DNA of 36,685 nt from Bacillota bacterium. Lineage in GTDB: Bacteria; Bacillota; Sulfobacillia; Sulfobacillales; Sulfobacillaceae. The translations under genes were made by a program, and so were the position numbers. Location: NCBI GenBank assembly GCA_021795465.1, contig JAJYPK010000016.1, forward strand, positions 1 to 36,685. Direction: 5' to 3'. The notes under the pieces were generated by a model, which worked only from the letters and a program-made list of their open reading frames with translations, did not search any database and had not been told where the DNA came from. This document shows positions 4,698 to 36,685 of the stretch, piece after piece (positions within the stretch are counted from its first letter, which is position 1; every line of letters begins with the position of its first letter).

Positions 4698-4966
4698 ACT
4701 CTGAGCGAGGGGTGGGACCGCAGGAATTCCGCCTGTTCGACTCCGAGCCGCTTGTAGTTCTGCGTGGAACGGTTCATGTCGATCGGACCCGTATTTAGAG
4801 CCACAACTCATTGATCTAGATTGGTGGACACATACTAATATACGAGCACAGCCGGAAAGACCCTAGGTCGTCGACAGGTATCACTTCTGGGGAAACTGGG
4901 GAGTACTTTTGCGGTAGCCGAGAGTCTTTGAGGCATTCTCGGATGCCGCGTTGCATCCTGGGAGGT

Positions 4967-5950
4967 TCAAGCGATGCGAGCCAAAAGCCACACTAAAATA
5001 GCGCCGATTGTTTCAGGGTCGAGTATGGCGTCAACCGCATTGTAACCTTGCGACACCTCCCCGACGGTCAATTGAGTGCGTGCTTTTGGTTCATATTTCA
5101 AGACGTGGTTGGCGTTATCAGGGAACAGCAGGACTACGTCCACATGGCCGGACGCAGCGTGCGTCAGACGTTCTCCATCGTTCTCCCAGTCGATTTGCAT
5201 GTCCTTTTTTCCGATGATCACCAAGACCGGACCATCCACCTTCTCCAGAAGGATCGCGGCGTCGACCGACCACAATTCCCGAGCAAATGGAAGGTTGGCA
5301 GGAGATTCCAGCGATTTTAGAAGCAACTGAATGCTTTCGGGTAAGGCCGGATCGGGCGCGACCGGTTGGCCGTCGAGAAAACGGGCGATAGCTGAATCGT
5401 AAAGAACCATGAATGCCTCTTTATTGGGAAGGGTGTTGGCCTCGACCGCAAGCTGGGATCGTGCGACGACTCCCACCGCACGTCCCGGCGGTCCTGTCAG
5501 AATAATCCCAGCCAAAGGCACCATAGGGGTCGCGAGCTGATAATTGAGAACGTGTAAGGTGCCTTCGCTGTTGCCGAGACCGTAGATATGGCTGACGTCG
5601 ATGTCTGGTCTCTCTGCCAAGAGGTCCACGGCTCCCAAAAGCTCCTCGACATGGGATGACATGCTAATCTGGCCCAAGAGATGCGCTACATTCGCCTGAG
5701 CATGAGGCCCTGAGACTCGCTTGTCGTAGCGCAATGAGGCGATTCCCGCCTCGGCCAAGGCTTCTGCGATGAGACGGGCGCTGCCGTTTGTTCCCGGTAC
5801 GAGCGGCGAATTCCAGTCGCGATCCGTAGGACCGCTACCCGCCACCATCACGACTGCCGGAAAAGGGCCGGGTCCAGGAGGCAATACGAGTGTGCCATAC
5901 ACGGTGGTTGGTCCCAATTTCCACTGCACATCGATGCTCCGTCCGCTCAT
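4967..5950 (-). CDS. Alpha/beta hydrolase (esterase/peptidase-like), 327 aa
   Basis: A serine hydrolase of the alpha/beta fold. The oxyanion-hole strand is VAGSGPTDRD (about residues 36-45), followed by the nucleophile elbow GLGNSEG with Ser128. Asp250 (GKKD) and His282 (NANH) are the likely acid and base. The start ATG at 5948-5950 is chosen because AGGAGGG lies six bases upstream and the next residues enter directly into the predicted fold. The frame stays open for another 53 codons to 6109, but that extension has no usable ribosome binding site. It could be a remnant of an extra N-terminal domain such as those on related bacterial hydrolases. The gene is 174 nt behind the nitrilase gene on the same strand and may be co-transcribed. 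The substrate is unknown. Confidence 0.82.
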   Translation of the reverse strand: MSGRSIDVQWKLGPTTVYGTLVLPPGPGPFPAVVMVAGSGPTDRDWNSPLVPGTNGSARLIAEALAEAGIASLRYDKRVSGPHAQANVAHLLGQISMSSHVEELLGAVDLLAERPDIDVSHIYGLGNSEGTLHVLNYQLATPMVPLAGIILTGPPGRAVGVVARSQLAVEANTLPNKEAFMVLYDSAIARFLDGQPVAPDPALPESIQLLLKSLESPANLPFARELWSVDAAILLEKVDGPVLVIIGKKDMQIDWENDGERLTHAASGHVDVVLLFPDNANHVLKYEPKARTQLTVGEVSQGYNAVDAILDPETIGAILVWLLARIA

Positions 5951-10807: not shown

Positions 10808-11629
10808 GTGTGCCCCTTCTTGGCGTATAACATAGAGACATCAAGATCCACCACAACAGAGCATCGGCATTGGAATCCGACAAGGGTTACCGAAGCGATC
10901 CGTGACCGGCAAAATCGGGGCTTACCGTTAAATGCGCACGCCGTCGAAATAGACGATTCTCGCCTCATCGCGGCGGCACGACGACTTTTCGGATGTTGGA
11001 ACGATGCCCTGACAGCCGCCGGTATCGAGCCCAAGTCGGTGCGGCCAAAACCCATACGCCATCCTCACGGGTTCTGGTCACGCACCACGATCATCGCAGC
11101 CATTCAGCAATATCAAAATCGTACAAGCCGTCTCGATGCCCACCATATGCAACACATTGACAATCCCTTAGTGTCCGCGGCCACCTACTATTTTGGATCG
11201 TGGTCCAAGGCGCTAGATGCCGCAGGCATCGATTCCAGCGCGGCACGCCAAAACACTCCGAGAAACCCAAGGCAAATTCTCCGTGCGATCGAGACCATGG
11301 CGAAATCTCATCAGACACTCCGTGACTTTGCAGCCCGTACCCATGATCGCGCCCTCTATGGGGCGGCCCAAAAATATTTTGGTTCGTGGAGAAACGCGGT
11401 GCGCGAAGCCGGGTATGAGGATGCCGCCCGTTCTTCAAATTCACGATGGTCGCGCGCAGATATTGAGTCCTTACTTGCTCATTATTTAACTTCGGGTGTT
11501 CCCCTGGACGACGTGTTTCGGCGCCATTCTCATCTCAACGCTGCCATTATCCGTGAATGGGGATCTTGGAACACGTTTGAACAAGCCCATCACGAGTGGT
11601 TCTTAGGAATCACGGAAGACCAAGGCTGA
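10808..11629 (+). CDS. Protein of four tandem HNH-associated DNA-binding repeats, no nuclease domain
   Basis: The 273-residue product consists almost wholly of four diverged repeats of about 60 residues, spanning roughly 21-80, 88-149, 150-209 and 212-264. Each has a W-(N/S)-(P/R)-x3-(I/V)-type opening (only partly kept in the third), a helical middle and the hallmark block (F/W)G-x-W-x3-(A/F): FGCWNDALTAAGI, FGSWSKALDAAGI, FGSWRNAVREAGY and WGSWNTFEQA. This pattern matches the repeat found beside HNH homing endonucleases (Pfam HNH_repeat type), thought to contact DNA. No HNH, GIY-YIG or other catalytic motif is present and there is no room for one. The GTG start follows an AGGA-rich stretch. 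It may be a sequence-specific DNA-binding protein or a relic of a selfish element; the role is unknown. Confidence 0.75.
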   Translation: MCPFLAYNIETSRSTTTEHRHWNPTRVTEAIRDRQNRGLPLNAHAVEIDDSRLIAAARRLFGCWNDALTAAGIEPKSVRPKPIRHPHGFWSRTTIIAAIQQYQNRTSRLDAHHMQHIDNPLVSAATYYFGSWSKALDAAGIDSSAARQNTPRNPRQILRAIETMAKSHQTLRDFAARTHDRALYGAAQKYFGSWRNAVREAGYEDAARSSNSRWSRADIESLLAHYLTSGVPLDDVFRRHSHLNAAIIREWGSWNTFEQAHHEWFLGITEDQG

Positions 11630-13713: not shown

Positions 13714-14673
13714 ATGGATCTCATGCATCACTCGAAAGAAGAATTTATCGAACAGATCGCAGCCGGGAACAAAGTTGACACCGGTGATTGGATGCCTGAT
13801 GACTATCGTCAATTGCTCATTAAGCAAATCCATATGCACGCGATAAGCGAAATCATGGGAGCCTATCCGGAGAAAGAATGGGTGAAGTATGCTCCGACCA
13901 TTCAACGAAAGTTAGCACTCAACGCCAAAATTCAGGATGAAATCGGTCATGGTCATATGCTGTTGCGGCTCGCGGAGGATCTGAGTGCCCCACTCGGGCG
14001 TGGACGCGAGGATTTGTTACACGACGTGCTAGACGGCCGCGTGAAGTTTCATAATGTGTTCCATATGTCTGCCCCGAGTTGGGCCGACGCTGGCGTCATT
14101 GGCTTCTTAGTGGACGGTGGCGCCATCATCACCCAAGCGATGTTGTTAGCGAGCTCGTATGCTCCCTATGCACGTATGCTAAAGCGGATCGTCGCCGAGG
14201 AAAGTTTTCATATGCAGTTTGGGGAATCGGTGGTTCTGGCTTTGGCATCGGGTACCGAAGTGCAGCGCGAGATGTTGCAACAAGCCATTAATCGCTGGTG
14301 GCCCGCCATGATGTTCTTCTTCGGACCCAGAGAAATGGGCCCGCAGTCCCAACGCATGCTGGAATACCGGATTCGTACGATGACCAACGAAGAATTACGG
14401 CAAAAATTTATCGCCCGCTACGTCCCCAGGATCCACGCACTGGGCATGACACTATCGGACCATGAACTCTACCAAGACCCCGATCCTCCCCATTTCTGGC
14501 ACTACACCGATCCCGATTGGGATTGGTTCAACGACATGGTGCATCACAACACTGGCCCCATGTCTCAAGCACGATTAGCCCTAAGACGTGGTGCCCAAGA
14601 AGGACTGGCATGGGCCCGACATGCCGCATTGCAAGCCCATGCCACGATCGATGTAAGAGCTGCAACACTGTAA
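13714..14673 (+). CDS. paaA: Phenylacetyl-CoA 1,2-epoxidase catalytic subunit PaaA
   Basis: PaaA is the di-iron oxygenase subunit that epoxidises the ring of phenylacetyl-CoA, the committed step of aerobic phenylacetate breakdown. The 319-residue length is typical. The ferritin-like ligand motifs are visible: Glu76-x2-His79 (DEIGHGH), Glu163-x2-His166 (AEESFHMQFGE), and a helix-1 glutamate near residue 46. The block WWPAMMFFFGP is also typical of the family. A second ATG nine bases in (13723) is an alternative start; the ribosome binding site AAAGGGGCGG lies about 10 nt before the first. It leads paaABCD; no paaE reductase follows. Confidence 0.95.
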   Translation: MDLMHHSKEEFIEQIAAGNKVDTGDWMPDDYRQLLIKQIHMHAISEIMGAYPEKEWVKYAPTIQRKLALNAKIQDEIGHGHMLLRLAEDLSAPLGRGREDLLHDVLDGRVKFHNVFHMSAPSWADAGVIGFLVDGGAIITQAMLLASSYAPYARMLKRIVAEESFHMQFGESVVLALASGTEVQREMLQQAINRWWPAMMFFFGPREMGPQSQRMLEYRIRTMTNEELRQKFIARYVPRIHALGMTLSDHELYQDPDPPHFWHYTDPDWDWFNDMVHHNTGPMSQARLALRRGAQEGLAWARHAALQAHATIDVRAATL

Positions 14674-14702
14674 CCATGCGCTCGAAAGGATGGTGACATA
14701 CA

Positions 14703-15059
14703 ATGAGTCTAGTGGACGACGCTCCGATTTACGAAGTTTTTGGTCAACGCGATGCCCTGAGCTTTGCAACCTATGTGGGCAGTGTGCGAGCCGCGTCTCT
14801 TGAATTAGCCCTCCTGTTAGCACGTGAAACATATTTTCGCCGGGAAAAGATATTTGATATGTGGGTCGTGCCCAAAGAATCCGTGACCCATGCTCGGGCG
14901 TTTGATGCCACTTTGCTGATGGGGAGTATGGATAAAGAATATCGCCTACCCAGCGGTTATGACAACGCGCCGATTTGGAAACAATTTAAAGCCCAAGCAC
15001 AAACCATCGAAGAGGTGGCATTAGATGTGGCCCCTCCTGCAAGGAGCTCGTCATCATGA
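14703..15059 (+). CDS. paaB: Phenylacetyl-CoA epoxidase subunit PaaB
   Basis: PaaB is a small non-catalytic subunit that links PaaAC heterodimers in the epoxidase complex. The 118-residue product has the family start (YEVFGQRDALSFATYVGSVRAAS), the LALLLARETYFRRE segment with the conserved Arg-Glu, and the MWVVPKE motif. It is somewhat longer than the usual 95 or so residues because of a low-complexity Ala/Ser tail. The stop overlaps the paaC ATG by four bases (ATGA), so translation is coupled. It sits 29 nt after paaA. Confidence 0.95.
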   Translation: MSLVDDAPIYEVFGQRDALSFATYVGSVRAASLELALLLARETYFRREKIFDMWVVPKESVTHARAFDATLLMGSMDKEYRLPSGYDNAPIWKQFKAQAQTIEEVALDVAPPARSSSS

Positions 15060-15829
15060 TCCTATTAACGCCTGAGAAGCACTCCGCCCTAAAGTCCATT
15101 TTAATTTCTGTCGCCGATGATGAATGGATCATGGGCCATCGAGGCTCGGAATGGCTGGCGGAGGCCCCAGACTTAGAAGATGATTTAGCCCTGAGTTCGA
15201 CGAGTCAAGATGAAATGGGCCATGCAAGATTGCTCTATCGCCTGATCGAAGAGTTGGGTGGCCCCTCGCCCGACCATCAAGTCTATGCTCGTCCCGTTGA
15301 TGACTGGTATCCTGCTCGGCTGGTCACGCTTGCCCGCCAAGACTGGGCGGAATGGGTCACCCGTCGATACTTCTACGAGGTTTTCGACGCAATTAGGCGC
15401 CATGCGCTGATCAGCATTCCATTTCCTTCTTTGGCTTACGCTCTCCAATCCATAGAACGAGAAGAGGCTTATCATATTCGCTACATTGAAGCGCAGATGA
15501 CGAATTTGGCCTATGGTGGGCAAGTCGCTCACGATTATCTCGCCCATGGGATCGCGGTCGACTGGGCGTTCATTCCGAGCCTCTTTAGCTGGGGCACTGC
15601 GGAGGAAACCTGGCAAATCCTCCAATGCCCCGCACTCGATCCCCGATCCCTACAACAGGCCTTCGAGGCGTCTATCCAAAAACAATTTGCAACCTGGGAT
15701 CTCGCCTGGCCCGGGCCTTTGGGTTCTATCGATGGCAACGGCCGCAGCGCAGCCAAGAACCCTGATCTCGCCCAGATTCGGGCAGAACTGCGTGCTGTCC
15801 GCCAAATAGCACCTGACTCTCATTGGTAG
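15056..15829 (+). CDS. paaC: Phenylacetyl-CoA epoxidase structural subunit PaaC
   Basis: PaaC is the ferritin-fold partner of PaaA that holds it in the active heterodimer. The 257-residue protein begins with the family block DDEWIMGHRGSEWLAEAP, followed by LEDDLALSSTSQDEMGHARLLYRL and later IEREEAYHIRY. The overall match to PaaC is strong. The ATG overlaps the paaB stop by four bases. PaaD begins 12 nt after its stop behind a good TAGGAGG site, so the four genes are one operon. Confidence 0.95.
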   Translation: MILLTPEKHSALKSILISVADDEWIMGHRGSEWLAEAPDLEDDLALSSTSQDEMGHARLLYRLIEELGGPSPDHQVYARPVDDWYPARLVTLARQDWAEWVTRRYFYEVFDAIRRHALISIPFPSLAYALQSIEREEAYHIRYIEAQMTNLAYGGQVAHDYLAHGIAVDWAFIPSLFSWGTAEETWQILQCPALDPRSLQQAFEASIQKQFATWDLAWPGPLGSIDGNGRSAAKNPDLAQIRAELRAVRQIAPDSHW

Positions 15830-15841
15830 GAGGCACCCCCG

Positions 15842-16285
15842 ATGACACGTGATGATGTAATGGAACGGCTTCGCACGGTTAACGACCCTGAGATTCCCGA
15901 CTTAAGTATTGTCGACTTAGGGATGGTCGAGTCCATCATTGTCACACCCGAACGTGTGCATGTCACTTTGCGGCCGACCTTCATTGGATGTCCCGGACTG
16001 GATTGGATTCTCGACCACGCGGTGGCCGCACTGCAGCCGGCCAAGGCCCTGGTATCCTATGACTTTGAACATCCATGGTCCGCCAGCGATATTACCGAAA
16101 AAGGACACCAACAACTCCGCTCGTTTGGCATTGCCCCGCCAGATGGTGGGTCTACAACGGTCTCTTGCCCGCTTTGCGGGAGCCAGGAGACCCATCAATC
16201 CAGCATGTTCGGCGCCACCCTATGCCGCTCGCTATATTACTGCAGGCAATGTCAGCAACCCTTTGAGGCATGGAAGCCTATCTAA
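15842..16285 (+). CDS. paaD: PaaD, iron-sulfur/assembly protein of the phenylacetyl-CoA epoxidase
   Basis: PaaD is a MIP18/SufT-type (DUF59) protein needed for an active phenylacetyl-CoA epoxidase, probably for metal-centre assembly. The N-terminal ~95 residues carry the DUF59 pattern VNDPEIPDLSIVDLGMV and PTFIGCPGLD. The C-terminal ~50 residues form a zinc ribbon with two Cys pairs (CPLCGS, CRQC), as in true PaaD and unlike generic DUF59 proteins. The ribosome binding site TAGGAGG lies about seven bases before the ATG. This is the last gene of the paa group here; it converges on the radical SAM gene with a 27-nt gap. Confidence 0.93.
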   Translation: MTRDDVMERLRTVNDPEIPDLSIVDLGMVESIIVTPERVHVTLRPTFIGCPGLDWILDHAVAALQPAKALVSYDFEHPWSASDITEKGHQQLRSFGIAPPDGGSTTVSCPLCGSQETHQSSMFGATLCRSLYYCRQCQQPFEAWKPI

Positions 16286-16312: not shown

Positions 16313-17329
16313 TTATGACGCGGTCCTGGGACACCCCGGGTCGTCGGCCATGAGCTGTGTGGTCATGGCGTAAGCCCGGGCCCTGGAACCACCACAGCTC
16401 TCACGGTAGATGCAGTGGCCGCAATGGCCAGTCAGCCGGTTGGGGTCGCGCAAGAGTTGAAAGAGATCGGAGTTCCGATAGATCTCTGAAAATGACGCTT
16501 GACGAAGGTCACCGGCCACCACCGGTAAATACCCGCTTGGATAGACTAAGCCATGGTGATCGATAAAAGCAAAGCCCCGCGCTTCACGCGCAACCACGCG
16601 AGGCGGGGTATCGCGATGACGTTCATGCCACACGCGAGACCACTGCGGAGCCCCGACGGTGGTTAAGCGAAAACCTGGCTGAGGTTCGCGCTCGGCCACC
16701 CACTCTAGAACTTCTTCAATCTGGTTAGGTAAGAGGGCATCGGCAATCCGTGCCCGACCCGTGGGGATCACGAAAAATATTTCCCAGCTCGTGACCCCAA
16801 GGGACTCAACCAGTTGAGCCATGGGTCGCACTTGGGCCATTGTTTGTTGACTCACTGCGGTATTGATTTGCAGAGCCAAGCCTTCCTCTACGATGGTATG
16901 TGCCAAATCGATGGTCCGGCTATAGGTCCCCCTTACCCCCCGGTAGGTGTCATGGGTCTCGGCGTCGACACCATCTAAACTTAGTGACACCGAATGGACC
17001 CCTAACTGTTTCCACCGTCTTATCGCCTCTTGGTCCAATTTCGGTGTGACGCTCGGTGCAATGGCGACGATTAAACCACGTAAACGGGCCTCTTGAATCA
17101 TGTCATCTAAATCGGGACGTTCTAGCGGATCCCCTCCGGTAAACACCAGAATCGGTGGATGCGTAAAGGTCGACCGCATGTCATCCAAGATCGGCCGCAT
17201 CTCCTCAAGCGTCAATTCTCCTGCATCACGCCTCGGAATGGCCCGGGCCCGACAATGTCGGCAATGGAGTTGGCAGGCCCGAGTCACTTCCCAAGTCACC
17301 ACATGTGGAGCCTTATTGTACGCATCCAT
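16313..17329 (-). CDS. Radical SAM/SPASM enzyme, NirJ/AhbD-like or TIGR04053-like
   Basis: The 338-residue protein opens with VTWEVTRACQLHCRHCRA, which contains the Cys19-x3-Cys23-x2-Cys26 site for the SAM-binding [4Fe-4S] cluster, and continues with the GGDPLERPD and SLDGVDAETHD motifs of the family. A C-terminal SPASM-like region has Cys303, Cys306, Cys312 and Cys333 (CGHCIYRESCGGSRARAYA), suited to an auxiliary cluster. Relatives take part in haem d1/alternative haem synthesis or in peptide modification; the GGSRARAYA tail points to the TIGR04053-type subgroup of unknown substrate. The ATG at 17327-17329 is preferred over an adjoining GTG because of spacing to GGGGGG. No precursor peptide ORF is evident next to it. 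Confidence 0.88.
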   Translation of the reverse strand: MDAYNKAPHVVTWEVTRACQLHCRHCRARAIPRRDAGELTLEEMRPILDDMRSTFTHPPILVFTGGDPLERPDLDDMIQEARLRGLIVAIAPSVTPKLDQEAIRRWKQLGVHSVSLSLDGVDAETHDTYRGVRGTYSRTIDLAHTIVEEGLALQINTAVSQQTMAQVRPMAQLVESLGVTSWEIFFVIPTGRARIADALLPNQIEEVLEWVAEREPQPGFRLTTVGAPQWSRVWHERHRDTPPRVVAREARGFAFIDHHGLVYPSGYLPVVAGDLRQASFSEIYRNSDLFQLLRDPNRLTGHCGHCIYRESCGGSRARAYAMTTQLMADDPGCPRTAS

Positions 17330-17511
17330 CACGGCGTCCCCCCTATTTCATTGATATCCTAACCTGTTCGCGCTCAGTTCGAAATGCCTGGCTTGATGTT
17401 GGTTCTTATGGACCACTCCGGAAGGTCCATTGGATCCTAACCTCTATTTACCAGTGGATTGTATGGTAAAGTTAGGCATGTTGCGAGGAATTTCTCGAGG
17501 GGGTCTTCGGA

Positions 17512-19939: not shown

Positions 19940-22003
19940 ATGGACACGTCGGAAAACCACAATCGTGCTTTGGCAGACGAGACCAAACAGGATTTAAAGG
20001 ATTTTGGGCTCTATTTTTCTAACCAATTTGTCACGCAATTTTATTCCCAACTCAGTCAAAAACCGGATACCAAGGTGTTCCTCGAGCGACTCACTCCAGA
20101 AGAATTTGAACACCTAAAATCACGACAGGCGGAGCATGTGCTTCACCTTACGGATCCCGATATGGGAAGCGCACAATTGAGTAAGGCCTCCAAAAGTGTG
20201 GGGAAAGTCCATGGCATGGTCGGTCTTACCGTGTCGATTTTGTCGCGTGCCTACCAACTTCAAACCAAAATTATCATCGAAGGCGTGTCCCGATATTTTA
20301 GACATCGTCCCCAACGCGATAGGGTGCGTACTTTTATGTATCAACGCATCCTGGAGGACCTTGTAGATCAGATGAGCGCGATGCAAGGAATCGGCCAACA
20401 ACAAGAGTACGTGTTGAGTAACATCACCCAAGTCATTCACGAGATGGACCCCATGTCCGATATCTTGGGGAGCGTGATCACAGAAATTTCCTCGCTATAT
20501 GGAATGCAAGCCGTCGTCCTGACACGCCCGGATTCCAATGGTCGCTTTCAGATTGAGCGATATTCAGGAGCCCTGGTAGAACGCTTTCTCGATCACCAGA
20601 GCGGAGGGCTCGCTCTGGACCTAAACGTCGAGACCCTCCCTGAAAAGGGTAGCATGGCCCAGGCCTGGGCTACCGGTACGATGTTCCTTGTCGATAACTA
20701 TGCCCTACGGAACCTACCCGAAGCCTGGCGTCTCGTGTTCCAAAGTGAAAGAGTGAGATCCGGGGCCGTCCTTCCGCTGATCGATGCAGAGGGAGAAACC
20801 CACGCGTTGTTACAGATGTATCACGAGATTCCGGGATACTTTTCGGGACCCGAACGGGAAACGTTTTTGTTGCGACTACAAGAGGTGCTCCACACCATTG
20901 TGGTGCAATCTGTCAAAAATCAACCGATCATTAGCCAACGTCAAAGGCAGACTTACCGCCACCTGTTGGAGGAAAACGGATTGGTGATGTACTATCAGCC
21001 GATCGTCAACTTAAAGACTCGGGCCATTCACAAGATGGAAGCCTTGGCCCGACTGCGAGAACCGGGGGGCAAGGTCATCCCACCCAATGAATTTCTGCCG
21101 ACATTTGGCCACCGTGAATTACTGTCTCTCTTTACCAAGGGCTTATACCAAGCGCTTCGAGATTTGCATGGCTGGCACGCTTACGCCTCGCTCGGTATCT
21201 CCGTCAACCTTCCGCCTGCAGGGATCGGGCAAGGCACCTATATGCGTGAAATAAAGCGGTTGTTAGCAGCTACCCGAACGGACCCCGCCCGATTGACGCT
21301 GGAACTACTGGAAACTGAAGACAGCACCACGAACACCTTGGCTCAAGGTATTGCGGAGCTTAAAGGTTCAGGTATTCACTTAGCCCAAGACGATTTGGGT
21401 TCTGGTTATAGTTCCTTAATGCGGATGGGCCGCGTGACCTTTGACGAGATCAAGATCGATCAAGGCTTAGTTCGTAACCTCACGTTTGGTCCCCAAAAAG
21501 CTCTGGGGTTCATCCATCATTTGACCAGTCTAGGACATGATTTCGACACCGTTGTTACGGTCGAAGGGGTTGAGCACGCGGGGTTACTCGAAGCCGCCGC
21601 CATCCTTGGCGCCGATTATGCCCAAGGCTATTGGATTTCACGTCCCATGCCGGAAGAAGACGTCATTCCCTGGATGAAGCAATACCAATTGGACTTAGAC
21701 ATCAATGGACCCAAGACAGCATTAGGCGCGTTCGCGGCCAATATTTTATGGCATTCTCAACTCCGTGCTTTGGCCCCTTTACCAGACTCCCTGTCCCATT
21801 TCCTACAAACTCGCTGTGGTTTGGCGCAATACATTGAGACGAAAGGCATGAAAGGCACGTCGCTGCACCACATACACGATATGATGCACGTGGTTGCACT
21901 AAAGGGAACCAACGATCCTCAGTATCATCGCATAAAGAAAGACATGGAACGTGTACTCACGGAGTATGTCGCATTGGAAGGAGCCGAAGGATTAGGGCGA
22001 TAG
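19940..22003 (+). CDS. Multi-sensor c-di-GMP phosphodiesterase: globin-like, GAF, EAL and CZB-like domains
   Basis: The 687-residue protein joins four modules. Residues ~20-145 resemble a globin-coupled sensor, with His91 in VGKVHGMVGL as the likely proximal haem ligand. Residues ~160-330 look like a GAF domain. Residues ~345-580 form an EAL domain with key residues kept: EAL at 367-369, the LETED glutamate, DDLGSGYSS (484-492), Lys505-x-Asp507 and Glu542 (VEGVE), so it should hydrolyse c-di-GMP. The tail (595-660) has His605, Cys626 and His643-650 arranged like a zinc-binding CZB domain. There is no GGDEF domain. The ATG has only a weak AGGGG immediately before it. It is predicted to be cytoplasmic, linking oxygen or redox and zinc signals to c-di-GMP. 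Confidence 0.88.
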   Translation: MDTSENHNRALADETKQDLKDFGLYFSNQFVTQFYSQLSQKPDTKVFLERLTPEEFEHLKSRQAEHVLHLTDPDMGSAQLSKASKSVGKVHGMVGLTVSILSRAYQLQTKIIIEGVSRYFRHRPQRDRVRTFMYQRILEDLVDQMSAMQGIGQQQEYVLSNITQVIHEMDPMSDILGSVITEISSLYGMQAVVLTRPDSNGRFQIERYSGALVERFLDHQSGGLALDLNVETLPEKGSMAQAWATGTMFLVDNYALRNLPEAWRLVFQSERVRSGAVLPLIDAEGETHALLQMYHEIPGYFSGPERETFLLRLQEVLHTIVVQSVKNQPIISQRQRQTYRHLLEENGLVMYYQPIVNLKTRAIHKMEALARLREPGGKVIPPNEFLPTFGHRELLSLFTKGLYQALRDLHGWHAYASLGISVNLPPAGIGQGTYMREIKRLLAATRTDPARLTLELLETEDSTTNTLAQGIAELKGSGIHLAQDDLGSGYSSLMRMGRVTFDEIKIDQGLVRNLTFGPQKALGFIHHLTSLGHDFDTVVTVEGVEHAGLLEAAAILGADYAQGYWISRPMPEEDVIPWMKQYQLDLDINGPKTALGAFAANILWHSQLRALAPLPDSLSHFLQTRCGLAQYIETKGMKGTSLHHIHDMMHVVALKGTNDPQYHRIKKDMERVLTEYVALEGAEGLGR

Positions 22004-25884: not shown

Positions 25885-26958
25885 TTAACTGCCAGCTAAA
25901 GCGGTCAAGTTCCGAAGAATCGCGTCGGTCACGGTCTCCGTCGTATCATTCCCCCCCAAATCTCGCGTCTTGATACCTTCTATCAAGGTGGACTCAATGG
26001 CTTGCAATACGAGAGTTCCCAATGTTGTCAACCCGAGATGATCTAACATCAGCTTGCCAGCCCATATTTGCCCTATGGGATTGGCCACCCCTTGTCCGGC
26101 GATATCCGGAGCAGACCCGTGGATCGGTTCAAACATCGATGGATACTTTTTCTCGGGATTGATGTTAGCCGAGGGACCGATTCCAATGCTTCCTTGGATG
26201 GCCGCTCCTAGGTCCGTCAGGATGTCGCCAAATAAATTGGACGCGACCACCACATCAAAACTTTCGGGGCGGGTTACAAAATATGCAGCCAATGCATCAA
26301 TGTGGTTACTATCCTGCCTAATCTCGGGGTACTCCTTCCCAATCTCGCGAAACACGTCATCCCAGAACGGCATCGAATAGTTAATTCCATTGGATTTGGT
26401 CGCAGAGGTTAGATATTGGCGCGACTGTCTCGCTAGCTCAAAGGCGTAACGCATCACACGTTCAGTCCCGTATCGTGTAAAAATCGAATTTTGTACCACC
26501 ACTTCTTCGGGCGTACCGATCCGCAAGCGACCGCCCATATTGGAATACTCCCCTTCGGTATTCTCCCTAACCACCACAAAGTCTATATCGCCAGTCTCGT
26601 AAGCACGTAACGGGCTGGTCACGCCAGGTAACAGTTTGACCGGTCGTAAGTTGACGTATTGATCGAAGGTACGACGAATGGGCAACAGGAGCCCCCACAG
26701 TGATACATGGTCCGGTACCGTTGGGTAGCCAACAGCGCCGAGAATAATGGCATCGAAATCTCTAAGCCTGTCCAATCCGTCAGTGGGCATCATGGCCCCT
26801 TCCTTCACATAACGTTGGCAACTCCAATCAAACGTTTGATAAGAAAATTGAACTTGGTTCGAGAGACTTGCAACATGATTTAGGACCCGCACCGCTGCGG
26901 GTACGGTTTCCTGTCCTACGCCATCCCCAGGTATTAGGGCAAGGTGGAACGATTGCAT
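25885..26958 (-). CDS. Tartrate dehydrogenase / D-malate dehydrogenase (decarboxylating) family
   Basis: The 357-residue protein belongs to the isocitrate/isopropylmalate dehydrogenase family, which oxidises a 2-hydroxy acid with NAD and often decarboxylates it. Visible motifs are ALIPGDGVGQE, LLLPIRRTFDQYVNLRPVKLLPG, VVVRENTEGEYSN, SNLFGDILTDLGAAIQGSIG (metal-binding Asp residues) and the family block EPIHGSAPDIAGQGVANP. The YVNLRP and ENTEGEYSNMGGR versions favour the TtuC/DmlA tartrate-malate branch over LeuB. AAAGGAG precedes the ATG. It is the last gene of the acid-sugar operon, 66 nt after pdxA2, so the natural substrate may be a four-carbon acid such as tartrate, D-malate or a threonate relative. 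Confidence 0.88.
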   Translation of the reverse strand: MQSFHLALIPGDGVGQETVPAAVRVLNHVASLSNQVQFSYQTFDWSCQRYVKEGAMMPTDGLDRLRDFDAIILGAVGYPTVPDHVSLWGLLLPIRRTFDQYVNLRPVKLLPGVTSPLRAYETGDIDFVVVRENTEGEYSNMGGRLRIGTPEEVVVQNSIFTRYGTERVMRYAFELARQSRQYLTSATKSNGINYSMPFWDDVFREIGKEYPEIRQDSNHIDALAAYFVTRPESFDVVVASNLFGDILTDLGAAIQGSIGIGPSANINPEKKYPSMFEPIHGSAPDIAGQGVANPIGQIWAGKLMLDHLGLTTLGTLVLQAIESTLIEGIKTRDLGGNDTTETVTDAILRNLTALAGS

Positions 26959-27024
26959 TCTTGGACACTCCTTTCAGTTTTCAAAAAGTCCCTTGTGGTC
27001 TGATCTACCTCGGTGGTTTTTATG

Positions 27025-28038
27025 TCATGTGGTGAGGCGGGTAAGACGAGCCAGTTCGCTGCATACGCGTAAGGCCTCAGATTGCCCATGAGCGTCGGCC
27101 ACTCCTTTTCCCGCAATATCGAACGCCGTACCGTGATCGACGGACGTTCGGATTACGGGTAGTCCCAATGTGACACTTACGGTTCCATTGAAATCTAAGG
27201 TTTTGGTCGCAATGTGACCTTGATCGTGATAGAGAGATAAGACTCCGGTATAACGTCCTTGTCGCGCTTGATAAAACACGGCATCCGCTGGTACCGGCCC
27301 CACCACCGACAATCCGGCGGCTTGTGCTTTAGACACCGCAGGCGCCAGGATGTCGTGCTCTTCGGAGCCAATTAATCCGTTTTCGCCTCCGTGCGGATTC
27401 AAGGCAGCGACCGCCAAACAGGGCTCGGAAAACCCGAGATTTTGGAGATAGCGGATGCCTTGCTCAATACCTTCGTAGACCCGATCAATCGTCAATAGGG
27501 CGATGGCCTCTTTCAGTGGATGATGGCGCGTAAGAAAAAACACCCGCAAGTTTTCGACCACGAACATGGTCACAACGTGGTCCGCACAAAACAGTTCCGC
27601 GAGCATCTCGGTATGGCCAGGATAGTGATACCCGGCTTTACGCACGGCCTCCTTATTGATAGGTGCTGTGTTAATTGCCGCGATGTCTTGGTTTTTGGCC
27701 GCTTCGATGACGGCCATGATGGCTTTCACCGCCATGTCACCGGCCTTTGCACTCACCTTCCCGTAATCCATCGGATGTCCCACGTTGCTGGTGGCGACCA
27801 CGTCTAACACGCCGAGTTCACCGACGGCTTCCCGTGCATTTTCAATGACCTTAATGTGACCGTGCCATTGCACCAAATGTGCCGTTTGTCGAAAAACCTC
27901 CGGATCCCCGTACAACACCGGAATAATCTTCTCATACACTCCGGTTTCGGCCAGGGACTTCACAATGATTTCTGGGCCAATCCCCCCTGGATCTCCCATC
28001 GTAATACCGATTCGTACGCGTTCTTGGTGACTATTCAT
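27025..28038 (-). CDS. pdxA2: PdxA2-like 4-phospho-threonate/erythronate dehydrogenase
   Basis: This is a PdxA-family, NAD-dependent, metal-binding dehydrogenase of 337 residues. Next to DUF1537 kinases such proteins act in sugar-acid breakdown, oxidising 4-phosphothreonate or -erythronate at C3 with decarboxylation to dihydroxyacetone phosphate, and not in vitamin B6 synthesis. The ITMGDPGGIGPEI start and three metal histidines are clear: His142 (YPGHTEM), His216 (LNPHGGENG) and His271 (YHDQGHIATK). The start at 28036-28038 is chosen because AGGAGGT lies ten bases upstream inside the kinase gene and the ORFs overlap by only eight bases. An upstream ATG at 28062 is possible. PdxA for pyridoxal phosphate cannot be excluded by sequence alone, but the operon argues against it. 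Confidence 0.88.
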   Translation of the reverse strand: MNSHQERVRIGITMGDPGGIGPEIIVKSLAETGVYEKIIPVLYGDPEVFRQTAHLVQWHGHIKVIENAREAVGELGVLDVVATSNVGHPMDYGKVSAKAGDMAVKAIMAVIEAAKNQDIAAINTAPINKEAVRKAGYHYPGHTEMLAELFCADHVVTMFVVENLRVFFLTRHHPLKEAIALLTIDRVYEGIEQGIRYLQNLGFSEPCLAVAALNPHGGENGLIGSEEHDILAPAVSKAQAAGLSVVGPVPADAVFYQARQGRYTGVLSLYHDQGHIATKTLDFNGTVSVTLGLPVIRTSVDHGTAFDIAGKGVADAHGQSEALRVCSELARLTRLTT

Positions 28039-29194
28039 GCGGTCCGCTACCTCCTCTGTCATTGCCTATTATCGAGGGAGCCATCACCAGTCGATGAAAG
28101 AGTGCTTCATCTCCCACGAGGCCACCCTTGGTCACAATCTCTCGGCCATCGTATGCCCCCCCGTCAATAATGCCTTGTGCCACTAAAGGAGACAACAATC
28201 GTTTGACATTAGTGCCATGGGCCCCGATTTGATCCAAAAACGCTTGAGCCATTTCTCCCCCGGTCACAATGAGACGATCGGGAATCCAATGTTGGGATTG
28301 GAGTTCATCTAACCGACACTTCGCATCTCGTGCCAAGGCACGAGCCAATGGTTGACGATGTGCTGCATCGATGGGTTCCAATCCCGAATGGATTACGATG
28401 ATAGAAGGCAGTCTCTCCCCATCTATCGGTTCAGATAAATTCCGAATTGCCACCTTACGGCGCCGTCGTAAGTATTCAATCTGGCGTAAGTTGATGACGG
28501 TGGGACTGCCTACCACAAGGGCGACCCGGTCTGGCCCAATCCCGGGATAATGTTCAAGAAGAGCCCCACTCGTGACGGTAACCATCGGTGTCGTAATGGT
28601 GGCGCGTAGGCGATGGAGCACGTAGCCAATCTGCACCAGATCGTTGTCATCCGTCACGTCAAAGCACACGCGTCTGGTTGCACTTAAATGAGCTACCAAC
28701 GCATCCGTGTCACGATAGAGAGCCTCGCGTGATATCACTTGAGGGGACGCAGCACTCGAAAACAGGTACGCACCGAGGTCGTCCGTTGGGACTTCAGGAA
28801 GTTTGGATGACACCAGCACGCCATGAAGATATTGCTTCCCGCCTCGTGTCGTCCGACCCGCGCTGGGATAGGCTGCGATCACACCGATCCACGGTTCCTC
28901 AGGCAATGCGTCCAATAGCAACTGCAGTTCATCGGGAGCCGGACCCCGCAACGTCGTATCAATCCGCTTGTCAAAATTCCGATATTCATGCGCCCAAAGA
29001 TGCTTCACCCATGCAGTGATCAGGTTTCGGCGACGGGGATCTTCACGACTGCGGGTATTGAGTACCAGTGTACGGTTTGGCATCTCGGGGATCTGTTCCA
29101 GCACAGGAATCGACATCCCCAATCCTACGGCGAGTGCCCCAGCCGAGGCACTCGCTCCCGTAAGATCGTCTGCAAGAACCGCAAAGCGTCTCAT
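28031..29194 (-). CDS. Four-carbon acid-sugar kinase (DUF1537, OtnK/DtnK-like)
   Basis: The 387-residue protein matches the DUF1537 kinase family, which phosphorylates C4 sugar acids (D-threonate, L-threonate, D-erythronate) at O4. N-terminal substrate-domain motifs are visible, LADDLTGASASAGA and DKRIDTTLRGP (the family KxDSTLRG motif). The C-terminal ATP-binding part has LIVTGGEMAQAFLDQIGAHG. The family is usually ~400-430 residues, so this is a short but apparently complete member. The ATG overlaps the deoR stop by four bases, and pdxA2 overlaps its 3' end. The order kinase-PdxA2 is the classical arrangement for conversion of a C4 acid to dihydroxyacetone phosphate. Which stereoisomer is used cannot be told. 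Confidence 0.9.
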   Translation of the reverse strand: MRRFAVLADDLTGASASAGALAVGLGMSIPVLEQIPEMPNRTLVLNTRSREDPRRRNLITAWVKHLWAHEYRNFDKRIDTTLRGPAPDELQLLLDALPEEPWIGVIAAYPSAGRTTRGGKQYLHGVLVSSKLPEVPTDDLGAYLFSSAASPQVISREALYRDTDALVAHLSATRRVCFDVTDDNDLVQIGYVLHRLRATITTPMVTVTSGALLEHYPGIGPDRVALVVGSPTVINLRQIEYLRRRRKVAIRNLSEPIDGERLPSIIVIHSGLEPIDAAHRQPLARALARDAKCRLDELQSQHWIPDRLIVTGGEMAQAFLDQIGAHGTNVKRLLSPLVAQGIIDGGAYDGREIVTKGGLVGDEALFHRLVMAPSIIGNDRGGSGPHE

Positions 29195-29988
29195 ATACGG
29201 TCTTCCCTGTCCGTATCGACGCCATCCAGATCATCCGCCACCATGAGGTCCCAGCCTCGATCCAAAATTGCTTGCACATCATGTTCCGACGGCGGCGTGT
29301 CGGTCACGATAGTCACGGGGCCATCGATCATACTGACATGCGCAAAATTTTTATGGAATTTACTAGAATCTACCAAGATGAACGCCTCTCGAGCCGACGT
29401 CACCATCCGCGTTTTCAATACTGCTAGGGATGCCGTAGGCGACGTTACCCCGACCGTTGGGTCCAAGCCAAATGCCCCCAAGAAACAGACATCAACCTGA
29501 AGCCGCGACAGTTGATCGAGGGCAGCATCACCCATGAAGGCTTGGTTTTTATGACGCAATCCGCCTCCCAACCCTACCAATTCGATGTCATCCCGGTACC
29601 GTAACTCATCTAAGATACTGAGACCATTTGTGACTACCAATAGAGAGTGGTTTTTCGGAATAGATCGGGCAAGGCATGCTGTGGTGGTCCCGGCATCTAG
29701 AATAACCGACTTAGCCTCCAGTAACACCGGGAGTACCGTGGCCGCAATACGGCACTTCGCCGATTGCTGGGCACCCATCCGTTGTTGAAAACTTTGCTCG
29801 GTGCTCGATGGAGCAATGACGGCTCCTCCGTAGGTCCGTAGCAATCGTCCATGGCCTTCAAGGCTAGAGAAGTCTCGCCGGATCGTAGCAATGGAAACAT
29901 CCAGTGCCGACGCTAAGTCTTCGGCCCGCACGGTGGCATTGCGTTGGATGTTTTTTACAATGTATTCCCGTCGCTCTCGTTGGTTCAT
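29191..29988 (-). CDS. DeoR-family transcriptional regulator
   Basis: The 265-residue regulator has an N-terminal winged helix (QRERREYIVKNIQRNATVRAEDLASALDVSIATIRRDFSSLEGHGRLLRTYGGAV), with the helix-turn-helix and RRD motif of the family. A C-terminal phosphosugar sensor domain follows, with LDAGTTTACLARSIP, VVTNGLSILDEL, GGGLRHKNQAFMGDAA and VDSSKFHK. Such proteins usually repress their own catabolic operon and are released by a phosphorylated intermediate, here perhaps a 4-phospho sugar acid. The start at 29986-29988 is the normal family start; the frame extends 30 codons upstream but the extra residues look unstructured. A perfect CCAAAG-gcg-CTTTGG palindrome directly precedes the ATG and covers its weak ribosome binding site. 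Confidence 0.93.
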   Translation of the reverse strand: MNQRERREYIVKNIQRNATVRAEDLASALDVSIATIRRDFSSLEGHGRLLRTYGGAVIAPSSTEQSFQQRMGAQQSAKCRIAATVLPVLLEAKSVILDAGTTTACLARSIPKNHSLLVVTNGLSILDELRYRDDIELVGLGGGLRHKNQAFMGDAALDQLSRLQVDVCFLGAFGLDPTVGVTSPTASLAVLKTRMVTSAREAFILVDSSKFHKNFAHVSMIDGPVTIVTDTPPSEHDVQAILDRGWDLMVADDLDGVDTDREDRI

Positions 29989-30079
29989 CCAAAGCGCCTT
30001 TGGGTGTCCTCCGCATTCAACTCGGGACACCCTACGGGCTTCACTCCTCTCATCCATGAAACGCGCATAGCGTTTCATG
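29989..30079. promoter_or_regulatory. Three inverted repeats between the MFS and deoR genes
   Basis: CCAAAG/CTTTGG (29989-30003) abuts the deoR start. GGGTGTCC/GGACACCC (30002-30032) has a 15-nt loop. CATGAAACGC/GCGTTTCATG (30055-30079) has perfect 10-bp arms around a 5-nt centre. They could be DeoR operators, a site for transcript processing, or an attenuator that sets regulator level below transporter level. Confidence 0.45.
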
Positions 30080-30109
30080 CGCTATCGGATCTCACCTGGC
30101 ACTGCCTGA

Positions 30110-31402
30110 TTAAACCTGAACTTCTGCGGCTTCGGTATCTACGGTTAAATTCCTCACCCGCAATGATAAGATCAGCAGGCCGGCCACGATAAGAACGATC
30201 GTCAACGCAACCATCCCAGCAACGGTCGAATTGGTCGCCGTAATTAAAGCTCCGACGATAAAGGGTCCAAAGAATCCGCCCAAATTGCCGATTCCGTTGA
30301 TTAGTCCCATAGTGGGTCCCAATCCAGCCTCCGTCACGAACAGAGGGGGCAGCGTCCAGAACACTCCCACGTAAGGCAACATGAAGCCTTCTGTCAGAAT
30401 CAAAAATACCAGGGATAACAGAATGACGTGCGTGGTCAGCAGAGACCCCAATAAGGCTAGCCCCCCAAAAATAAGCGGGAAGGCCGTATGCTTTTTTCGT
30501 TCGTTCGTCTTATCCGAGTGATTCGCATTGATCCACATTAAAATCAGTGCGGCCACATAAGGAAGCGCTGTAATGAATCCAGTCACCGTGAATCCCGATT
30601 TGGTCAACCCCTTAATAACCGTCGGCAACCATAAGGCGAAGCCGTAGAACCCGACTTGAACCAAAAAGTAGATGACAACTAAGAGCCATACACGTGGATT
30701 ACTAAAGGCCACACGCCAGTCCTGGGAGACGGTCCGGCTACGGAGTCGGTCTTCCTCGAACTTTTGGTGAAGATAAGCCTTTTCCTCCGGACTGATAAAC
30801 CGAGCTGTGTCGGGAGAATCTGCAATTAAGAGCCACCAGACTAATGCCCAAATAAATGGGGGCAAGCCTTCAAAGATAAAGAGATACCGCCAGGATAGAT
30901 GTTGGACAATAAATCCTGACAACGGCGCCATAATGATAGCCGCCACCGGCAAACAAAACATCCAGTACATATTCGCTCGTGCTCGTTCTTCGGCCGGGAA
31001 CCACCGCGAAAGCAATATTAGGGTCGCGGGCCAAACGCCCCCTTCTGCCACACCTAATAAGAAGCGTACGATCATTAGTTCGGTTTCGTTCTGCACGACG
31101 CCTGTAAGAATCGCAAAGAGACCCCACACTAACAACGCGCCAAGAACAAACTTCTTGGCACTGAACTTAGACGCGATATGCCCTCCGGGAATTTGCAGAA
31201 ACAGGTAGCCAAAAAAGAAAATACCGCCCGCCAAACCGGCAGCTGATGCAGAAATGTGCAGCGATTTTTCCATCCCACTGAATCCGAAGCCTACATTTAT
31301 GCGATCCATATACGCAATGGTGTACATCAAAAATGCGACAGGAATAATACGGCGCCAACGTGTACGCCCAACTTCTCCCCCAGTTAAGGAATTGTCGGTC
31401 AT
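30110..31402 (-). CDS. MFS transporter, anion:cation symporter (sugar acid / tartrate type)
   Basis: A 430-residue, 12-segment major facilitator of the ACS family that imports organic anions such as galactonate, glucarate, tartrate or threonate with protons. Family motifs include YTIAYMDRINVGFGFSGMEKSL in helix 1, GYLFLQIPGGHIASKFSAKKF, and RFLLGVAEGGVWPATLILLSRWFPAEERARAN, the latter being the ACS signature. The ATG at 31400-31402 is chosen because AGGGAGG lies six bases upstream; earlier in-frame ATG and TTG codons are too close to or ahead of it. It is the first gene of the five-gene operon and the likely importer for the acid that the kinase phosphorylates. Confidence 0.93.
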   Translation of the reverse strand: MTDNSLTGGEVGRTRWRRIIPVAFLMYTIAYMDRINVGFGFSGMEKSLHISASAAGLAGGIFFFGYLFLQIPGGHIASKFSAKKFVLGALLVWGLFAILTGVVQNETELMIVRFLLGVAEGGVWPATLILLSRWFPAEERARANMYWMFCLPVAAIIMAPLSGFIVQHLSWRYLFIFEGLPPFIWALVWWLLIADSPDTARFISPEEKAYLHQKFEEDRLRSRTVSQDWRVAFSNPRVWLLVVIYFLVQVGFYGFALWLPTVIKGLTKSGFTVTGFITALPYVAALILMWINANHSDKTNERKKHTAFPLIFGGLALLGSLLTTHVILLSLVFLILTEGFMLPYVGVFWTLPPLFVTEAGLGPTMGLINGIGNLGGFFGPFIVGALITATNSTVAGMVALTIVLIVAGLLILSLRVRNLTVDTEAAEVQV

Positions 31403-31433
31403 TTCCATCCTCCCTATACTTTTTGATCTCAAA

Positions 31434-34954: not shown

Positions 34955-36052
34955 TCATGCAATCGGAACCAACTGCCACAGCGCATGGTCAGCATTGCCA
35001 TGATCGCCGCATGTTACGCAATCTGGACGGCGGATCCAGGTACTCACGGGGGCCACCGCTAGGGTCGAAAAATCTAAGCGCAGCACGGCATTGCCCCGTG
35101 CCAGATCGGGACCAGTTACGAGGTCCACCCAGCGTTTCATAATCCACGATGTCATGAGACCCAAGGTAGGGCTAATGAGTGGTGTGTCGGGCTGGAATTG
35201 GTTCAACACTAAACTGGTAACCAGTTGGCGAAATGATGGAGAGCGGTCATCGCTCGTAGCTAAGAGACAATCGATGCATCCGGTGACCCCAGGAATCACC
35301 TCCATCATACGACCGCTCTGGCGCTGACTGAAGGCATATACGCTGGGAATGCCTTCCGCCATGCAAGCGTAGTTGACTAACCGCTGCATCTGGTAAGGTG
35401 GCTCGTCGGCTGCACAAAAGACCCAGTCCGAGCCGCGAACGATGGATTGAATGTCGGCGACTCGTTCGAGCTTCTGATTAAAAGACTGCACCTGGGACCC
35501 TGCAACGTGACGAGAAATATACTCTGATGCGACCTTGACTTTGGCGTAGCCAATGTGGTCGATATCGTACATCCATTGCCGGTTGAGATTCGAAACCTCC
35601 ACGCGATCATAATCCACGATCCGCATGTGCCGAACGCCGATGGCCGCCAGGTGCATGAGGAAGTGGCTACCGCCTCCTCCCGCACCAATAACCGTCACCC
35701 TCATGGTTTCCAAGCGGCGCTGAATCGCTAGTGCATCCAAATGCTCGAGCTTCCCGCGGGCACGTTCATCATCCGCAGATTCTACATATGGGGATTTAAA
35801 AGCGACGACAGGGCCGGCCTCGCGAAGTTGCGTCAGCGCTCCCTCCGCGTCTTCAGTACTCACACCCGCCGCGACCATGGTTTGAACGATGGCGACATCT
35901 GATTGAATACCATCGCACAATTGAAGTAGACGTTGCCAATGACCGTCAGGATCTGGAATTTCCCAGACTTCGTTATCGTCGGCTGCAATGCGGATTTGAT
36001 TATTACGCCAAGGGTAAATCGGTAAGTCCCGGCGTGTTCGTAGAAATTCCAT
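34955..36052 (-). CDS. ThiF/MccB-type adenylating enzyme with N-terminal RRE-like domain
   Basis: The 365-residue protein has an E1/ThiF/MoeB-type adenylation domain (about 105-340). It shows the nucleotide loop VIGAGGGGSH (121-130), DYDRVEVSNLNRQ (147-159), lysines 171/173, the ATP-binding CAADEPP (Asp216) and two zinc cysteine pairs (C259/C262, C345/C348). The first ~88 residues look like a PqqD-type winged-helix RiPP recognition element: basic start, IRIAADDNEVWEIPDPDGHWQRLLQLCDG, then a helical segment. Length and order match MccB of microcin C biosynthesis. CGGAGGG lies seven bases before the ATG. Upstream are a terminator and an 18-codon ORF. No E2, JAB protease or ubiquitin-like protein is near, which argues against a conjugation system. 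Peptide adenylation is inference. Confidence 0.82.
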   Translation of the reverse strand: MEFLRTRRDLPIYPWRNNQIRIAADDNEVWEIPDPDGHWQRLLQLCDGIQSDVAIVQTMVAAGVSTEDAEGALTQLREAGPVVAFKSPYVESADDERARGKLEHLDALAIQRRLETMRVTVIGAGGGGSHFLMHLAAIGVRHMRIVDYDRVEVSNLNRQWMYDIDHIGYAKVKVASEYISRHVAGSQVQSFNQKLERVADIQSIVRGSDWVFCAADEPPYQMQRLVNYACMAEGIPSVYAFSQRQSGRMMEVIPGVTGCIDCLLATSDDRSPSFRQLVTSLVLNQFQPDTPLISPTLGLMTSWIMKRWVDLVTGPDLARGNAVLRLDFSTLAVAPVSTWIRRPDCVTCGDHGNADHALWQLVPIA

Positions 36053-36074
36053 TGAATGGCCCTCCGTTCTTCAG

Positions 36075-36100
36075 AAAAAGGAGGGGCCGACGGGCCCCTC
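36075..36100 (-). terminator. Intrinsic terminator between the small ORF and the thiF-like gene
   Basis: On the minus strand GAGGGGCC (36100-36093), a 4-nt loop and GGCCCCTC (36088-36081) form a perfect 8-bp G/C stem followed by C and TTTTT (36079-36075). It lies 79 nt after the stop of the 18-codon ORF and only 22 nt before the thiF-like start, so most transcripts would end here and some read through. Confidence 0.75.
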
Positions 36101-36178
36101 ATAGTCGATAACATACGCAGATGAACTCCGTTCGCTCCAGTCGTGGCACGGTCTGGTATTCCGTGCGCGTTGACCCAA

Positions 36179-36235
36179 TTAAATAAAGTACCAATTGACA
36201 TCATCGGGATTCATAGTTAGGCGTTTGAGTTCCAC
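36179..36235 (-). CDS. 18-residue peptide, candidate RiPP precursor or leader peptide
   Basis: The GTG at 36233-36235 sits five bases behind AAGGAGGGG, one of the strongest ribosome binding sites in the window. It opens an 18-codon frame that encodes MELKRLTMNPDDVNWYFI and ends at TAA (36179). The N-terminal half is basic and the C-terminal half acidic then aromatic/hydrophobic. The next gene on the strand is the MccB-like adenylating enzyme, behind a terminator. In microcin C loci the precursor is a similarly tiny ORF, but it ends in Asn, while this one ends in Ile with Asn at position 14. The alternative is a regulatory leader peptide. An internal ATG (MNPDDV...) has poorer spacing. Confidence 0.5.
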   Translation of the reverse strand: MELKRLTMNPDDVNWYFI

Positions 36236-36263
36236 AGTCGCCCCTCCTTAATTGTTGTGCCTT

Positions 36264-36291
36264 AATTATTGAGCAAAAAATCTCACAACAA
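36264..36291 (-). promoter_or_regulatory. Promoter of the small ORF-thiF unit
   Basis: On the minus strand TTGTTG (36286-36291) and AATAAT/ATAATT (36264-36270) are spaced 15-16 bp apart, in an AT-rich segment about 30 bp before the small-ORF start. The -35 match is 4 of 6. Confidence 0.45.
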
Positions 36292-36308
36292 CCTATGCGA
36301 AATCTAAA

Positions 36309-36342
36309 CCGATATCGTTATCGGATAGAATTAGGTTATACT
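36309..36342 (+). promoter_or_regulatory. Operator-like inverted repeat and -10 box of the ArsR-type gene
   Basis: CCGATA-tcgt-TATCGG (36309-36324) is a perfect 6-bp inverted repeat with a 4-bp centre, where the -35 box of the divergent regulator gene should be. The -10 box is TATACT (36337-36342). A winged-helix dimer encoded by that gene would fit such a site and could control both directions. Confidence 0.5.
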
Positions 36343-36373
36343 ATCGTATATCATGCTGATGAAGGAGGATTTC

Positions 36374-36685
36374 ATGAACACCAAAGATCTACATGTTAAA
36401 GACAGCTTGACCCTCGGAGCACTGGCACATCCTACACGTTTCGCGATGTTGGAAGCGCTGATGCACGATACCATGACGCTGACCGACTTGGGTCGCCTCC
36501 TCGGTGAAAAGCCGGGTAAACTCCGGTTTCATTTGATGAAATTGGTGAAAGCGGAGTTGGTGGAATTGGTGAACGTCTCAATTGTTGGCGGCGTCGTCGA
36601 AAAGCGATACCACGCGACCATGAGTCGAGTCGTGAGCGAAGCGGACTCGCCGACCATTGACGCAAACCTCGCCGACAAACGGGCA
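36374..36685 (+). CDS. ArsR-type winged-helix regulator, 3'-truncated by the window edge
   Basis: The first 104 codons are present; no stop is reached before the window ends. The protein has the ArsR/HTH_20 pattern LTLGALAHPTRFAMLEALMHDTMTLTDLGRLLGEKPGKLRFHLMKLVKAELVELV, that is helix 1 with HPTR, the recognition helix with KLRFHLMKL, and a wing containing KRYHAT. No metal-binding ELCVCDL motif is present, so it is not an arsenic-type sensor. AAGGAGG lies five bases before the ATG. It is divergent from the peptide-thiF unit with an operator-like repeat in between, so it probably regulates that unit and possibly further genes outside the window. Confidence 0.85.
   Translation, partial: MNTKDLHVKDSLTLGALAHPTRFAMLEALMHDTMTLTDLGRLLGEKPGKLRFHLMKLVKAELVELVNVSIVGGVVEKRYHATMSRVVSEADSPTIDANLADKRA

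Follow-up and report, generated by a model that had tools for sequence, protein, structure and literature searches.

The closest described counterpart of the locus analyzed here is the ind cluster of Streptococcus pneumoniae, in which IndF, a ThiF-like enzyme with an RRE, joins the indole nitrogen of a Trp to the carboxyl group of a C-terminal Ile (PMC12150305). For the IndA core, EDTTNWYFI, the Trp6-Ile9 indolylamide was proven by NMR and a W6A substitution abolishes activity; indolylamide macrocycles were unknown in RiPPs before this 2025 report (PMC12150305). According to a review of the field, the NWYFI group occurs exclusively in Lactobacilli and has longer precursors as well as a peptidase. 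Among the other systems with RRE-ThiF enzymes, microcin C has precursors that all end in the Asn required by MccB, and a terminator between mccA and mccB has been described (PMC6495379), whereas for enterofaecin, made by EnfB from a precursor ending in WWIVI, the product was assigned as an imide and a single-ATP cyclization was proposed (PMC12250964).

We examined a locus near one end of the window, by which we mean the whole 36,685 nt stretch of DNA analyzed. On the minus strand, an 18-codon ORF preceded by a strong Shine-Dalgarno sequence, a hairpin with a T-run and the gene for a 365-aa RRE-ThiF enzyme follow one another, all in the places given by an initial sequence-only reading of this DNA. 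The ORF, a candidate indA-like precursor gene, extends from a GTG start codon at 36235 to the end of the TAA codon at 36179 and encodes MELKRLTMNPDDVNWYFI; its Shine-Dalgarno, AAGGAGGGG, is at 36241..36249. The enzyme gene occupies 34955..36052 and has a Shine-Dalgarno of its own, GGAGGG, at 36060..36065. In the interval between the two genes (36075..36100) is an intrinsic terminator-like hairpin with an 8 bp stem and a 4 nt loop, whose GC-rich sequence GAGGGGCCCGTCGGCCCCTC at 36100-36081 is followed by CTTTTT. On the plus strand, a divergent gene with a profile match to ArsR/HTH_20 regulators (36353..36685) has an uncertain start, at ATG 36353 or 36374, and is cut by the end of the contig. 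The ArsR gene and the precursor gene share an intergenic promoter/operator region, 36250..36373, in which the blocks GATATACGAtAGTATA and TTTTTGcTCAATAATtAA are conserved in a three-way alignment with the two orthologous loci described below.

Two close relatives of the enzyme (79% and 70% identity) were found among 101 genomes searched, both in the family of the window genome but in two other genera, on the public MAG contigs JAKACZ010000003 (locus L034) and JAKACM010000021 (locus L035). The sequence-only reading had proposed to ask whether homologues are preceded by a similar small ORF and hairpin and whether the ORF favors synonymous changes, and both questions could be answered in its favor. 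The same peptide is encoded upstream of both orthologous enzymes, with a hairpin; L034 has the intact precursor MEIRRVTAGPDDTIWYFI and an additional first copy that is frameshifted, and L035 has the intact precursor MELKRVTASPDDTIWYII and an additional second copy that is truncated. The consensus over the window and the two orthologous loci is M-E-[LI]-[KR]-R-x(4)-P-D-D-x-x-W-Y-[FI]-I, and the peptide is under purifying selection, with pN/pS of 0.11-0.39 in all six of the copy pairs. While the C-termini vary, with NWYFI in the window and TIWYFI and TIWYII in the orthologous loci, the Trp-x-x-Ile spacing is constant; every intact precursor copy ends in Ile, and a C-terminal Asn is absent.

In 154 genomes of the class, the degenerate pattern P-D-D-x-x-W-Y-x-I-stop matched only these four copies, and a reversed-pattern control gave no matches. 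A looser pattern applied to 398 genomes of the phylum gave four extra matches, none of which is a small ORF with a start codon beside a ThiF gene. Given the recurrence of the peptide next to both orthologous enzymes, the pN/pS values and the specificity of the pattern, we judge that the 18-codon ORF is a genuine gene, well beyond chance, as the initial reading of it as a precursor had supposed. An alignment also hinted at the remains of a second precursor in the interval from the window peptide to the hairpin, but this was unsupported, since 344 of 5000 shuffled sequences scored equally well. Separately, the NWYFI pattern was seen in four viral contigs (L067-L070) as an 11-codon frame, xRNTTNWYFI-stop, that has neither a start codon nor a ThiF gene in any of the four, and is perhaps there by chance.

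Taken alone, the hairpin in the window does not go beyond chance (six such structures found against 2.8 +/- 1.7 expected; fold z = -0.98). It gains significance from the two orthologous loci, each of which also has a hairpin directly upstream of the enzyme gene (fold z = -2.2 and -3.3).

The 365-aa ORF matches the ThiF family (PF00899, E=8.9e-44), and matches to the MccB (7e-32) and PaaA (7e-23) profiles, the latter extending into the RRE, confirm the class of the enzyme. Residues ~1-85 are RRE-like (bbb-aaa) and residues ~107-355 form the ThiF/E1 adenylating domain, with Q159, K171, Y220, R248 and T290. An AlphaFold2 model built from three sequences was poor (mean pLDDT 47), only the N-terminal bbb-aaa RRE-like part reaching ~55-82. 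Like the peptide, the enzyme is under purifying selection across the window and the orthologous loci (pN/pS 0.18-0.23). We also considered an anti-phage E1-E2 system (Bil/CBASS Cap2-like), and rejected it: the matches were generic to the ThiF domain, and neither an E2 nor a JAB gene was seen among the neighboring ORFs of the window and the orthologous loci.

For comparison with IndF, we used a genome that we take to be of Streptococcus type, picked with a 16S probe sequence, and its family was the set scanned for ind loci. Across 335 genomes of this family, a scan for NWYFI-stop gave nine matches, six of which adjoin a ThiF gene. One of the six, L125, encodes MIMI-MEDFNILELEFEEIREEDTTNWYFI, and the mass computed for its dehydrated IndA core (585.7587) agrees with that published (585.7591). 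Since the streptococcal enzyme L129 has Q167, K179, Y228, K256 and T298 exactly at the published IndF numbers, it is, to judge by these five positions, IndF or a very near copy.

Aligned over its full length, this streptococcal IndF is 34% identical to the L035 enzyme (372 aa, E=7e-75) and 32.7% identical to the window enzyme (361 aa). The five residues tested in IndF correspond to Q159, K171, Y220, R248 and T290 of the window enzyme, all invariant in the three orthologues; four are identical and K256 is replaced by R. In a tree of 15 RRE-ThiF proteins, IndF joins the three orthologues in one clade (support 100/99), and the remaining proteins, among them a Niallia enzyme whose precursor ends in WWIII, fall outside it; an earlier tree built without IndF had given no firm sister to the window enzyme family. 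Among 18 RRE-ThiF enzymes, IndF excluded, the combination of an aromatic residue at 220 and Thr at 290 is confined to those with a W-x-x-I precursor end. Because the enzyme falls in the IndF clade and the peptide ends in the same five residues, NWYFI, as IndA, we predict a Trp-Ile indolylamide and not a peptidyl-nucleotide, and consider a compact IndA/IndF-type RiPP cluster the likely identity of the locus. Counted against this reading are the identity to IndF of only about 33% and the Arg in place of K256, as are the lack of ind accessory genes nearby, the deletions in the enzymes and the imide assigned to EnfB, all described below.

According to this model, the 18-mer would be translated from the short ORF with strong ribosome binding, and the hairpin would probably stop most transcripts, leaving more mRNA for the peptide than for the enzyme. 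The RRE domain is expected to bind the N-terminal portion of the peptide, which carries the E-[LI]-[KR]-R motif. By analogy to IndF, the ThiF domain, with ATP and Mg, would then adenylate the carboxyl group of the C-terminal Ile18, and attack of the Trp15 indole nitrogen on the activated Ile18 would release AMP and, with net dehydration, close the ring Trp15-Tyr-Phe-Ile18. Judging from the orthologous loci, the MFS protein of the divergent operon probably exports the product, and the ArsR and winged-helix proteins would act as regulators of the common promoter region. As the neighborhood lacks a gene for a dedicated leader peptidase, the peptide may leave the cell whole or be trimmed by housekeeping proteases.

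The likeness to the ind cluster (PMC12150305) lies in the NWYFI precursor end, the RRE-ThiF enzyme and the functional residues Q, K, Y and T. The window precursor, however, has 18 aa against 29 aa for that of ind, and the host belongs to a different, distant class of Bacillota. The streptococcal cluster also carries the M16 peptidase IndP, an ABC transporter and an Rgg regulator; tblastn searches of the window and of L034 and L035 with their 10-kb flanks found no counterpart of any of them at E<=1. These are accessory genes, not the defining chemistry. The orthologous loci carry an MFS exporter and ArsR/winged-helix regulators. Judged by gene content, the window cluster is a shorter, simpler variant that combines an mccABC-like arrangement with a substrate and an enzyme of the ind kind. 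More tentatively, and with chances that we would put somewhat short of even, it may represent a minimal, peptidase-free indolylamide pathway outside Lactobacillales, with an mccABC-like layout, in which the whole ring-bearing 18-mer is exported without removal of a leader.

Both L034 and L035 show a divergent ArsR gene followed by a Trans_reg_C winged-helix gene and an MFS transporter gene. In the genome of the window, the MFS orthologue (82% identity) is interrupted by the end of a different contig, C213, and no winged-helix orthologue was found. A gap between two contigs would give this separation of ArsR and MFS genes, which fits but is not proof, and for this genome the connection of the cluster to the MFS gene depends on that contig end. 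Since the cluster is present in three of the 34 family genomes searched and its flanking genes differ among the three loci, it behaves as an accessory island.

The small indels seen in the enzymes bear on whether the cluster is still functional. The window enzyme is missing five residues (AYFWA) that directly precede the ThiF domain in both orthologues, and in the L034 enzyme the ATP-binding glycine loop is shorter by two residues; owing to these deletions, one or both copies may be impaired. Together with the frameshifted first precursor of L034 and the truncated second precursor of L035, this raises the possibility, which we regard as unlikely, of a decaying cluster that formerly made an indolylamide and whose enzyme in the window genome is now inactive. 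Both deletions are in frame, however, the enzyme pN/pS values indicate selection, and in each of the three loci one precursor is intact and the reading frame of the enzyme is open.

The main chemical rival is an EnfB-type reaction, in which a backbone amide nitrogen near the C-terminus attacks the activated Ile to give a macrocyclic imide and not an indolylamide. The enterofaecin (EnfA/EnfB, WWIVI/WWIII) group has a precursor of ~20 aa that shares the W-x-x-I spacing and has a leader motif, (V/I)RKA (PMC12250964), similar to the basic [LI][KR]R of the window peptide, and EnfB R167/K180/D225 correspond to R158/K171/D216 of the window enzyme at a constant offset. The window enzyme nevertheless clusters with IndF, apart from the WWIII-type Niallia enzyme, the substrate end is that of IndA, whose ring was determined by NMR, and the enterofaecin structure needs further NMR according to the IndF authors (PMC12150305), which together make an imide rather improbable here. 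Pantocin A (PaaP/PaaA) is likewise made by an RRE-ThiF enzyme, the one behind the profile match at E=7e-23, but PaaA cyclizes internal Glu residues and the window peptide has no such Glu pair.

The initial reading had taken the locus for a candidate microcin C-like system while noting that the chemistry might differ, as the peptide lacks the C-terminal Asn. The gene order that it invoked, mccA, terminator, mccB, is indeed present, and the orthologous loci add an MFS exporter in the role of mccC; the tiny precursor, the strong Shine-Dalgarno, the hairpin between the A and B genes and an RRE-ThiF enzyme matching the MccB profile complete the resemblance to MccA/MccB/MccC. C-terminal nucleotidylation to a peptidyl-nucleotide antibiotic is nonetheless very improbable. 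The Asn needed for the N-P bond is missing and a conserved Ile is found instead, the peptide is an 18-mer and not a heptamer, and the enzyme is closest to IndF, not MccB, so that the predicted product is cyclic and bears no nucleotide adduct. The caution about chemistry was therefore well placed, while kinship with microcin C in the strict sense is contradicted by the IndF clade and the IndA-like peptide end. A transcription-attenuation leader peptide or a chance ORF, the alternatives named in that reading, or a housekeeping thiamin/molybdopterin sulfur-transfer enzyme, which a short ORF followed by a terminator and a ThiF fold might suggest, can hardly be credited, as the peptide sequence and not merely a codon run is conserved and recurs next to the enzyme, no Rfam leader elements were found, and the enzyme scores far below the NCBIfam cut-offs for ThiF (103 bits against 275) and MoeB (77.5 against 266) in a genome with two further full-length proteins of ThiF/MoeB type, encoded in reading frames of 417 and 290 codons.

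More distant RRE-ThiF genes were examined in genomes of the same family and on plasmids of Macrococcus bovicus, Sporosarcina, Niallia, Priestia and Pantoea. Most are preceded by an ORF of 16-21 codons with a good Shine-Dalgarno, and on a Salmonella plasmid the Shine-Dalgarno of a similar small ORF is weaker. Several of these loci also show a hairpin-like repeat ahead of the enzyme gene, and MFS or ABC exporters follow in many; most of the peptides are unannotated. The order of tiny ORF, hairpin and enzyme is a property of the superfamily, and so does not by itself mean microcin C.

Several of these loci encode precursors that had escaped annotation. In the same family as the window genome, they include MTIRKVAVIRNSTNPR (L036, 6782-6832), MRLRPTNAGSVFGSVPG (L037, 6377-6430) and MKIQVKKVEDVQTTCHVDQNC (L038, 220-285), the last ending in Cys and adjoined by apparent M14 and M50-like peptidase genes. 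Niallia taxi pMEGANia (L060) encodes a WWIII-type, enterofaecin-like precursor, MKKVTVRRATKVEATTWWIII, at 3799-3864 and the RRE-ThiF enzyme at 3983-5119, followed by genes for an HExxH membrane protein and an ABC transporter; a search for this enzyme in viral contigs found nothing. On a Priestia koreensis plasmid (L113, 1558-1834), three identical tandem precursors, MKKIVVRKLATVTVPQLRPGT, precede the RRE-ThiF gene. Plasmids of Salmonella, from an almond isolate (L116, 1849-1902), and Pantoea (L062, 3796-3849) encode similar short peptides, MKFTK...VG, with an RRE-ThiF gene, an MFS exporter and a divergent ArsR-type or winged-helix regulator, the layout of the window with a different peptide end.

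Elsewhere in the window, we noted at 10808-11629 a protein built of homing-endonuclease-associated repeats (HNH_repeat PF18780) that shows no obvious nuclease domain, and phenylacetyl-CoA epoxidase-type genes at 13714-16285, comprising two PaaA_PaaC domain proteins and neighbors. The PaaA_PaaC genes are adjoined at 16313-17332 by a TIGR04053-like radical SAM/SPASM protein that scores 385.5 bits, just below the cut-off of 395. A Protoglobin-GAF-EAL protein at 19940-22003 is a putative oxygen-sensing cyclic-di-GMP phosphodiesterase, and a putative four-carbon sugar-acid catabolic operon at 25885-31432 encodes a dehydrogenase, a PdxA-type protein, an SBD_N/NBD_C kinase, a DeoR-like regulator and an MFS transporter.

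As a distant, shorter and simpler version of the ind cluster, the window locus provides a second, independent enzyme-substrate pair with which the requirements of IndF chemistry can be tested, and its 18-mer precursor is readily accessible by chemical synthesis. The locus is also relevant to the question of whether members of the enterofaecin group, which share the W-x-x-I spacing and were assigned an imide, are truly formed by a different chemistry. The NWYFI group, described as exclusive to Lactobacilli, is met here in a distant class, and the window cluster suggests that indolylamide chemistry may be independent of IndP or a long leader.
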